Shown in pieces: positions 1 through 21,862 of a stretch of 41,464 nucleotides of DNA. Numbering within the stretch: the stretch's first letter is position 1; the number at the start of each line of letters is the position of its first letter. The notes beneath the pieces are model-generated. The model saw only the letters and a list, made by a program, of their open reading frames with translations. It did no database searches and was not told the DNA's origin. The stretch covers positions 1 through 41,464 of the forward strand of contig DULL01000009.1 in assembly GCA_012840395.1 (NCBI GenBank), read 5' to 3'. The translations under genes were made by a program, and so were the position numbers. This DNA is from Clostridiaceae bacterium (GTDB lineage: Bacteria; Bacillota; Clostridia; Acetivibrionales; DULL01).

Positions 1-764
1 AGGCTCGGGGAAACTCCCAAAATCCTTGCAGCCTGTCTTTGTGTTATCCCTTCTATTCCTTTTATCTCCCGTAATACTTGATTCCTTTCTTTTTTCGGGA
101 GGCTTTTTAGCTGCGCTATTTCAATTTCATTAATTACTTTCAAAATTTCCTGTCTTGCCTCATCATCAGATAATTTGATTTTTTTATTAATGGTATCATC
201 CATGCAGCAGTCATTACTTTCCTGTTCGTTCAATTGCTTGAATTTCTCTCTTGCTAATCTTTCATCTTTAGAGAGAATACTTAATATTAAGGTCTCATCT
301 AATAAGTCCTCAGGATAAACCTTTTCACCATAATAACCAATACAACTGCTCCATTTCCACTGTTCAGCCCGTCTAGCTAACTGTGCTTTCACTGGATTTT
401 GATGAATATATCTTATAACTGTCAGCAAATACCTCTCTGTTTCCACATTTTCGCTTAAAAACCTGTCCTGGAAAAGATGTCCTATAGTCTTGTATTTTTG
501 ATTATAATACCATACATAACTTACACCCAGGCGTTTCATACTTATTGATATGTCTTCGTTTCCCTCTTTTAACAATAAATGAACATGATTATCCATAAGG
601 CACCAACCATGAACTTTCATTTGGGAGATTGTTTTGACCTTTTTAAGGATTTCCAGGAATCTTAACCTATCATTGTTATCATGAAAAATCTCTTGTCTGT
701 TGGCACCTCTTATAATTATGTGATATACTCCAGTTCTACTTTTTTGTCTTGCACAGCGCGGCAT
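1..764 (-). CDS. REP-associated tyrosine transposase (RAYT, Y1/HUH), 3' end cut by window edge
   Basis: This single-strand DNA transposase-like protein is of the IS200/Y1 (HUH) superfamily, and 254 codons are visible. Translating the minus strand from the ATG at 764 gives an N-terminus MPRCARQKSR, then a metal-binding HUH motif in the segment MDNHVHLLL (His60, His62). A block RYIHQNPVKA follows, whose Tyr119 is the probable nucleophile, and WKWSS comes after it. From about residue 205 there is a helix-turn-helix-like tail containing ITQRQAARILGVS. These blocks are typical of RAYT proteins, single-copy domesticated relatives of IS200 that act on short extragenic palindromes. A weak RBS (GGTG) precedes the start. 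No IS ends are visible. The gene lies next to a cluster of GGGACGGTTCT repeats, its likely substrate (inference). The frame is open to the window edge, so integrity of the 3' end is unknown. Confidence 0.88.
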   Translation of the reverse strand, partial: MPRCARQKSRTGVYHIIIRGANRQEIFHDNNDRLRFLEILKKVKTISQMKVHGWCLMDNHVHLLLKEGNEDISISMKRLGVSYVWYYNQKYKTIGHLFQDRFLSENVETERYLLTVIRYIHQNPVKAQLARRAEQWKWSSCIGYYGEKVYPEDLLDETLILSILSKDERLAREKFKQLNEQESNDCCMDDTINKKIKLSDDEARQEILKVINEIEIAQLKSLPKKERNQVLREIKGIEGITQRQAARILGVSPS

Positions 765-19535: not shown

Positions 19536-19651
19536 GGCAACTCCTAATATTAATAATTAAGGTAGATACTATAGCCCGTTATTCAATAATATTCTGGAAA
19601 CATGGATATTATGACAAGTTATATAGAAACGTGATCTTCTCTCAATCTCTA

Positions 19652-19701
19652 TAGGCGGCTGATACCTTCCGGCTTTTCAAGTATTAACCTGATTGCCGCC
19701 T
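19652..19701. other. Possible structured element upstream of spoIIP
   Basis: AGGCGGC (19652-19658) and GCCGCCT (19695-19701) form a 7-bp stem, with an inner imperfect stem (ATACTT with AAGGTAT on the minus strand). Just outside, the minus strand reads TATAACAAGGCGGCAA, one base different from the start of the element at 21.8 kb. Function unknown. Confidence 0.4.
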
Positions 19702-19716
19702 TGTTATAAAAGATGC

Positions 19717-19762
19717 AAAAAAGGTCCAAACAACGGCTATCCGTTAAATTTGGACCTTTTTT
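19717..19762. terminator. Bidirectional-looking terminator after the ECF sigma operon
   Basis: GGTCCAAA (19723-19730) pairs with TTTGGACC (19749-19756), with an inner AACGG/CCGTT stem and flanking A and T tracts of six. It lies about 60 nt past the last gene of the sigma-factor operon and before spoIIP, so it most likely isolates the two transcription units. Confidence 0.8.
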
Positions 19763-19823
19763 ACTTTATTATATTTTTTATATCATACTATCATTTTGGA
19801 CTATTATTTTGGGGGAAATATTT

Positions 19824-21639: not shown

Positions 21640-21733
21640 CCTTTGTATATCTTATTTCCTCTTCATTATAACACCTATGTTCAAAAGAATATTTTTCGAT
21701 TGTAGGATAATTTACTTACATCTACGCTGTTTC

Positions 21734-21822
21734 AACGAGGCGTATCTTTTTTTCATTATCTGAACGCCAAATCGGCGTCTGCCACCTGCAGGATACATTT
21801 TGCCGCCTCGTTATATATAACG
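21734..21822 (-). other. Structured intergenic element, possible non-coding RNA or mobile miniature repeat
   Basis: Outer arms AACGAGGCG (21734-21742) and CGCCTCGTT (21804-21812) are perfectly complementary. Inside are GTATC/GATAC (21742-21746, 21792-21796), an ACGCC/GGCGT hairpin (21764-21778) and a CTGC/GCAG hairpin (21779-21791). It ends in the perfect 14-nt palindrome CGTTATATATAACG (21809-21822). The nested stems suggest a folded RNA or a small mobile repeat. I could not match it to a known riboswitch. The strand is assigned by the neighbouring gene and is uncertain. Confidence 0.5.
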
Positions 21823-21832
21823 ATTCACATAA

Positions 21833-21862
21833 AAAAAACTCTTCAAAGTTGAAGAGTTTTTT
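21833..21862. terminator. Rho-independent terminator of hisS-aspS
   Basis: ACTCTTCAA (21838-21846) pairs with TTGAAGAGT (21849-21857), flanked by an A tract and a T tract. On the minus strand it ends in eight T residues and lies about 120 nt after the aspS stop. Confidence 0.85.

Follow-up and report, generated by a model that had tools for sequence, protein, structure and literature searches.

A MITE-like family of twin-hairpin elements with TTAT junctions in Bacillota, probably moved as single-stranded DNA

Between aspS and an ECF sigma operon in the genome of a Clostridiaceae bacterium (assembly GCA_012840395.1, contig DULL01000009.1) lies an intricately folded stretch, at positions 21734-21822 of the 41,464 nucleotides analysed here (the window). 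An initial annotation, made from the sequence alone, offered three readings of it, namely a leader RNA, a stand-alone small RNA or a miniature mobile element, and we asked which of these it is. The reading that we favour, with modest confidence, is that the feature is an old copy of a non-autonomous, MITE-like mobile element that would have moved as a single-stranded hairpin by means of an enzyme supplied in trans. Together with the copies found elsewhere it makes up a new MITE-like family, probably moved as single-stranded hairpin DNA; members of this family lie dispersed in their genomes, with recent movement in some hosts, have TTAT on both sides and are oriented with respect to replication.

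The folded stretch and the unit around it

The component parts that had been reported for the fold are present in the sequence: 9-bp outer arms (AACGAGGCG at 21734-21742, pairing with CGCCTCGTT at 21804-21812), a further pair of 5-bp arms (GTATC at 21742-21746 and GATAC at 21792-21796), two inner hairpins (ACGCC/AAATC/GGCGT at 21764-21778 and CTGC/GCAG at 21779-21791) and a 14-nt palindrome (CGTTATATATAACG at 21809-21822). No open reading frame of 80 or more amino acids overlaps the stretch, and the stem of the presumed aspS terminator stands just beyond it. Folded as RNA, the + strand reaches -25.7 kcal/mol (z -3.77), a value equalled by 0 of 200 dinucleotide shuffles. The folded element is therefore real, but its extent had been drawn too short: similarity to other copies begins 68 bases further left, at TTAT 21666, which makes 21666-21816 the full unit and the reported fold no more than its right-hand arm, P2. 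A mobile element had likewise been the right kind of explanation with the wrong ends, as AACGAGGCG and CGCCTCGTT enclose no more than the right-hand hairpin; the mobile unit, judged from the alignment, the recent sites and an empty-site comparison, runs from TTAT followed by AACGCC to CTCGTTAT. A covariance model covers 21666-21816 over its whole length with 103 bits, a score that is self-included because the window copy is one of the 53 copies from which the model was built. The features of the window copy are as follows.

21666-21816, + strand: whole element, from TTAT to the right end (covariance match over the full model; alignment of 53 copies)
21666-21669, + strand: left TTAT repeat, on the target side (sequence; TTAT also in 22/22 recent copies elsewhere)
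21670-21731, + strand: P1 arm, AACACC at 21670-21675 and GCTGTT at 21726-21731, with a decayed AT-rich hairpin between them at about 21685-21717 (alignment)
21734-21812, + strand: P2 arm, the reported fold, AACGAGGCG ... CGCCTCGTT (sequence; folding)
21764-21778, + strand: inner hairpin ACGCC-AAATC-GGCGT, its loop conserved in many copies (sequence; alignment; pair counts)
21779-21791, + strand: shortened remnant of the CCACCT/AGGTGG hairpin (alignment)
21811-21814, + strand: right TTAT repeat (sequence)
21835-21862, - strand: terminator-like stem after aspS, outside the element (self-reverse match; sequence)

Across the family the unit measures about 139-157 bp and consists of two side-by-side hairpins between TTAT direct repeats, in the order TTAT, P1 (AACGCC…GGCGTT), TC, P2 (AACGAGGCG…CGCCTCGTT) and AT. 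The underlying alignment (A2) began with 134 regex matches, which were reduced to 95 rows by removing 15 spurious matches and collapsing near-duplicates; a cut on length and cost left 60 of these rows, of which 53 entered the alignment. In these 53 copies P1 has an outer stem AACGCC/GGCGTT that encloses a long inner hairpin and is followed by TC, and P2 has an outer stem AACGAGGC/GCCTCGTT that encloses a CAAATC-loop hairpin and a CCACCT/AGGTGG hairpin and is followed by GGGGGACAT and then AT. The inner P1 hairpin reads AAAATTTTTC/GAAAAATTTT in Clostridia and AGTTTTGCC/GGCAAAACT in selenomonads, and a third type occurs in families f44 and f116. Alignment, pair counts and DNA folding all place hairpins near both ends of the element.

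Several copies depart from this layout. P1 is now a nearly perfect palindrome at loci L206, L229 and L161 in the 53-copy alignment, which may reflect template switching between hairpin arms in which one arm was recopied from the other. Extra GC-rich hairpins, often of the type GGTGTCC...GGACACCATGGA, lie inside P2 at L040, L041, L224, L234, L239 and L249. Where copies form tandem arrays, neighbouring units have one TTAT-type junction in common; in the tandem mini-elements of genome G376 (L389, L390, L396, L398) every unit carries a P1 stem of its own, with compensating changes on both arms, and retains only a few bases of P2.

The window copy is diverged and probably immobile. In DNA folding its P2 comes out intact, while its P1 has decayed and no longer folds; a better-kept copy forms both arms. 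The 5-bp arm pair GTATC/GATAC is peculiar to this copy among the 53, and the 14-nt palindrome is the right end of the element abutting a left-end-like TATAACG in the flank. The copy is antisense to both aspS and the sigma gene (gene names as in the initial annotation) and ends 26 bp from the start codon of the latter. A scan found 2 promoter-like sites at the copy against 2.2 expected, so we claim no promoter for it, and any effect on the sigma gene would be incidental. Another intergenic gap of the window also matched the covariance model, though weakly, at 19619-19783 on the minus strand (21.6 bits, E 0.047); the + strand there contains GCCGCCTTGTTATAA, which resembles the right end of the element, and this is possibly a decayed copy.

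Copies, insertion sites and inheritance

Similarity and covariance searches recovered further copies both in the same genome and in its relatives. A search of the window's own genome with 161 bases returned a second copy of 72% identity on contig C25, and a search with that copy returned further copies and fragments on C25, C9, C11, C59, C107, C83 and C110. With covariance model R1 (E up to 0.01) we counted 127 copies in G003, 96 in G053, 18 in G051, 17 in G040, 16 in G049, 9 in the window's own genome (G000), 2 in G032, 1 each in G027, G036 and G043, and 0 in G017 and G046. A sample of the phylum gave a match in 19 of 398 Bacillota genomes (E up to 0.001, with at most seven candidates scored per genome); the family ranges over Clostridia and Negativicutes, with Selenomonas, a Hungateiclostridiaceae MAG and Candidatus Formimonas among its named carriers. 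Short, non-coding and present in many dispersed copies whose differing flanks mark unrelated sites, the element has the general properties of a MITE.

Pattern matches in other phyla (Devosia, Pseudomonas and others) were set aside as chance: 40 loci (38 of the 69 pattern-matched loci and 2 viral) were scored with the model, and the 9 that matched were all Bacillota by title. The two pattern matches in viral contigs had no covariance match, three longer patterns gave 0 matches there, and the element was absent from the phage collection. Among 72,556 plasmid records a single one carries the element, S. ruminantium pSRC1, which has it at two places, and the best plasmid copy coincides with no annotated feature; the own-genome query matched no plasmid record.

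Mobility was seen in Selenomonas sp. AE3005 (G331), where 44 places match one copy, many of them 98-100% identical at different sites, and more than 20 copies are near-identical. We searched 21 other genomes of the genus for the empty counterpart of one of these sites, L321, and the joined flanks aligned across the junction in seven relatives (G459, G468, G465, G463, G464, G088 and G466; about 79% identical), the element being present in 0/7. TTAT stands on both sides of the copy in G331, and the relatives have a single TTAT-type site in 4/7 (GTATAA on the other strand) and TTAA in 3/7. This is the one empty site resolved to the base; at a second site the element motif was absent in 4/4 relatives checked, and the intergenic sequence has diverged so far that the junction has no sure position. 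A copy identical at 135/135 positions lies in S. ruminantium SIG242 (G468), a genome about 79% identical to G331 at aligned loci, with flanks that were not found among the G331 loci compared; recent horizontal spread is the likely explanation. Another short copy is found with the same flanks in three genera of two families (L033, L035 and L388, in G039, G035 and G002), which suggests a horizontally moved region.

At 22 distinct recent sites the left side reads TTAT (22/22) and the right side begins with AT (22/22), so that the right end also reads TTAT; the base after the right AT is A in 19, T in 2 and G in 1. TTAT at both junctions argues against a simple TA duplication, and the junctions would fit a duplication of TTAT as well as an insertion behind an existing TTAT that duplicates nothing, two outcomes that look the same in sequence. 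We make no claim that terminator tracts are a special target: in a crude test of 43 Selenomonas-type sites, 12% had a hairpin upstream and 9% had one downstream, compared with 5% in shuffled sequence, and the figure for 114 other sites was 3%.

Copies can evidently be long-lived and can disappear through ordinary deletion, since two copies of G040 occupy the same places in G003, in diverged form, and are missing from G046 (95% identical to G040), where the deletions at these two sites take flanking bases too. At genome scale, G046 has 0 copies and G040 has 17, the two being about 95% identical at the compared locus, a pattern of wholesale loss by separate deletions.

Stems, orientation and the search for a mover

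The initial annotation had named, as observations that would refute it, the lack of a second copy, the lack of covariation and a match to a known RNA family; other copies exist, the stems covary strongly, and Rfam has no match at the gathering threshold. When the pairs of a named structure were counted in the 53 copies, because RNAalifold predicted almost no structure from the same alignment (-0.43 kcal/mol), 88.2% of cells were paired, against 83.2% after shuffling and 43-51% when the structure was slid, a control that favours this structure as it was read from the copies themselves. Double changes occurred in 22 of 35 pairs (shuffled mean 11.4) and in 93 cells (31.2 shuffled). Such covariation would be expected of a conserved structured RNA, a leader or small RNA that is multicopy by chance, and so would the conserved loop, the GGGGGACAT motif and the fact that the minus strand is usually co-directional with the neighbouring genes. 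However, covariation alone cannot separate RNA from DNA hairpins. In a selected transcript, G-U pairs should exceed the mirror class, A-C, on the strand that is transcribed. Here mispairs over 34 pairs comprised 59 G-T and 71 A-C (bootstrap interval of the difference -43 to 21), a count that leaves out the register-doubtful pair 22-53, whose 20 G-T would make it 79 against 72. Neither strand shows the RNA signature, and stems that covary without a G-U excess fit DNA hairpins better than a conserved RNA.

Other observations also speak against a conserved RNA. The flanks of the copies are unrelated, copies occur in tandem arrays, and none is found in G046 despite its 95% identity to the carrier G040. 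Rfam gave 0 matches in the window at the gathering threshold and, in a relaxed local scan, only sub-threshold ones over the terminator and an AT stretch; the loci of two other copies had no match. A conserved RNA is accordingly very improbable as an explanation, and neither the leader RNA nor the stand-alone small RNA of the initial annotation is supported, as the copies lie beside different genes and G-U pairs are not in excess among their mispairs, whichever strand is read. More generally, the stems of mobile elements can mimic the covariation of an RNA.

Orientation offers a second line of evidence. Co-directional flanking genes favour the element's minus strand as the sense strand at 58 sites against 15 (46 against 13 in a separate plain ORF gene call of the same kind); these counts take plain ORF calls as genes, omit, out of 173 sites, the 24 that overlap a long ORF and the 15 that lie next to a contig edge, and keep diverged orthologous sites unmerged. 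This asymmetry could be an effect of genes or of replication. The genome of G003 is complete, in one contig, at the start of which the translations read as what we take to be dnaA, dnaN and recF. Among the 60 of its 127 matches that were listed, 36/39 in the first half are on the minus strand and 20/21 in the second half on the plus strand (Fisher p 8e-12), and the local GC skew changes sign along with the strand of the element. After merging of tandem copies, the replichore is obeyed at 46 of the 50 sites represented by these listed matches, including 14/16 gene-neutral sites (those whose neighbouring genes are convergent or divergent); the one site flanked by two lagging genes departs from the rule. 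Outside G003, local GC skew has the expected sign at 112/152 sites and at 41/56 gene-neutral ones, and three other complete genomes gave small numbers with some exceptions, the copies that agree by local skew being 5/7 in G002, 5/7 in G074 and 2/3 in G399. The window copy fits as well, with a window GC skew of -0.17. The bias is weaker in selenomonads (52/80) and, in the recent G331 set by itself, falls short of significance (15/22, p 0.13), and for these reasons selection on orientation may also have played a part.

An ordinary DDE-type MITE, inserted through a double-strand cut with a 4-bp TTAT target duplication and given its strand bias later by selection, where one orientation would disturb transcription or replication, is a possible but less probable account. 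TTAT on both sides of all 22 recent sites resembles a target duplication, a bias that is weak in recent copies (15/22) and strong in older ones is what later selection would leave, and the 58 against 15 co-directional genes agree with it. On the other hand, the replication rule holds at the gene-neutral sites (14/16 and 41/56), the inverted repeats at the tips amount to AACG/CGTT only, and no coding relative was found in 356 loci (1.84 Mb), where no element had both ends with a gene between them. Nor did five selenomonad genomes contain paired isolated ends of the kind an autonomous relative would have; terminal inverted repeats shared with an autonomous transposon, a mark of MITEs, were thus not found.

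In the single-stranded reading that we favour, one strand would fold into hairpins when exposed at the replication fork, and a putative trans-acting enzyme would recognise the hairpins and join the unit at TTAT in a manner resembling that of IS200/IS605 transposases. In G003 the lagging-strand template carries the strand reading ATAACGAGG...GGCGTTATAA, and the strand with the 5' TTAT lies on the leading-strand template, opposite to what the simplest analogy to IS608 would have; because TTATAA at the tips is palindromic, either strand may be the active one. The putative enzyme does not, in the genomes tested, correspond to an intact Y1 transposase at the sensitivity of Pfam PF01797. G331, with 44 element matches, has one broken Y1 fragment, and neither it nor G419 (41 element matches) has an intact Y1 gene at Pfam sensitivity; no Y1 match at all was found in G419 or in G034 (at least 15 copies), and G026 has 20 Y1 matches and no copies of the element, so that RAYT-type genes do not track copies. 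A Y1 or RAYT enzyme as the mover is therefore not supported in the genomes with bursts of copies (G331, G419), although a transient, plasmid-borne or very divergent Y1 gene may be involved. The window itself contains a Y1_Tnp match (396-728, minus strand; RAYT-like, in a 265-aa frame), away from any element copy.

These results make an improbable candidate of a Y1-dependent non-autonomous element, PATE-like or REPIN-like and served by a resident or formerly resident Y1 transposase of the IS200/IS605 or REP-associated kind. The hairpins, the fixed tetranucleotide, the orientation to replication and the T-rich target do match IS200/IS605 in the published excerpts available (PMC5371812, PMC6006769), yet the distribution of Y1 genes in G331, G419, G034 and G026 runs against it, and no conserved GTAG-type tag was recognised. 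A wider proposal, that twin-hairpin elements have spread across Bacillota classes by single-stranded, replication-coupled insertion at TTAT with a non-Y1 enzyme, and so represent a second, independent lagging-strand route, is one that we advance only tentatively and consider rather unlikely. A high-copy family with an IS200/IS605 signature and no intact Y1 gene in two burst genomes raises a testable question, namely what moves the element, and the recent burst in Selenomonas and the zero-copy strain beside carriers are natural contrasts for addressing it. The family may also aid annotation, as it has no Rfam match and its best plasmid copy lies under no listed feature.

Comparison with known systems

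Our searches found no published description of this repeat in the literature within reach, which excluded most subscription journals. The BOX and RUP elements of Streptococcus pneumoniae have sequences and hosts that we take to be unlike those of the present element, and they are set apart here by description only. The likeness to them lies in being short, modular, structured repeats of the MITE type (PMC10969869, PMC3733652); in the available excerpts, such repeats are described as inserting into one another (PMC10969869), and RUP is counted as a MITE together with bcr1 (PMC3733652). REP sequences and REPINs are likewise intergenic palindromes of high copy number, described in part of one source as probably mobilised in trans by TnpA-REP (RAYT) (PMC6006769), and the present element is probably moved in trans too; it is, however, much longer, with twin arms and TTAT junctions, and its copies do not co-occur with a RAYT gene (20 Y1 matches and no copies in G026, no Y1 match and at least 15 copies in G034).

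There is a mechanistic parallel with IS200/IS605, whose members with Y1 transposases are the ones for which the excerpts describe replication-coupled single-stranded transposition, with terminal hairpins, a fixed junction tetranucleotide and an orientation that follows replication (PMC5371812, PMC6006769), and with the PATEs, their non-autonomous derivatives (PMC7290912). Hairpins near the ends, a fixed tetranucleotide at both junctions and an orientation to replication are common to these and to the present element. In contrast, the genomes with recent bursts have no intact Y1 transposase, no coding parent with the same ends was found, and the hairpins fill the whole of the present element. 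We do not file it as a member of IS200/IS605, because a defining feature of that family, the Y1 transposase, fails despite the three likenesses.

By description only, the published repeat that comes nearest to the present one is bcr1, from the Bacillus cereus group (PMC6542083). The repeats bcr1-bcr3 are short, intergenic and MITE-like, reach up to 130 copies, and have a mobility linked to repeats of a TTTAT motif with no known enzyme (PMC6542083, PMC3446304). They thus resemble the present family as short intergenic Bacillota repeats of high copy number with a TTAT-like motif. They differ from it in that bcr1 is described as confined to the B. cereus group, whereas the present family occurs in Clostridia and Negativicutes, and in that the excerpted descriptions of bcr1 make no mention of replication orientation (PMC6542083, PMC3446304), which the present family follows.
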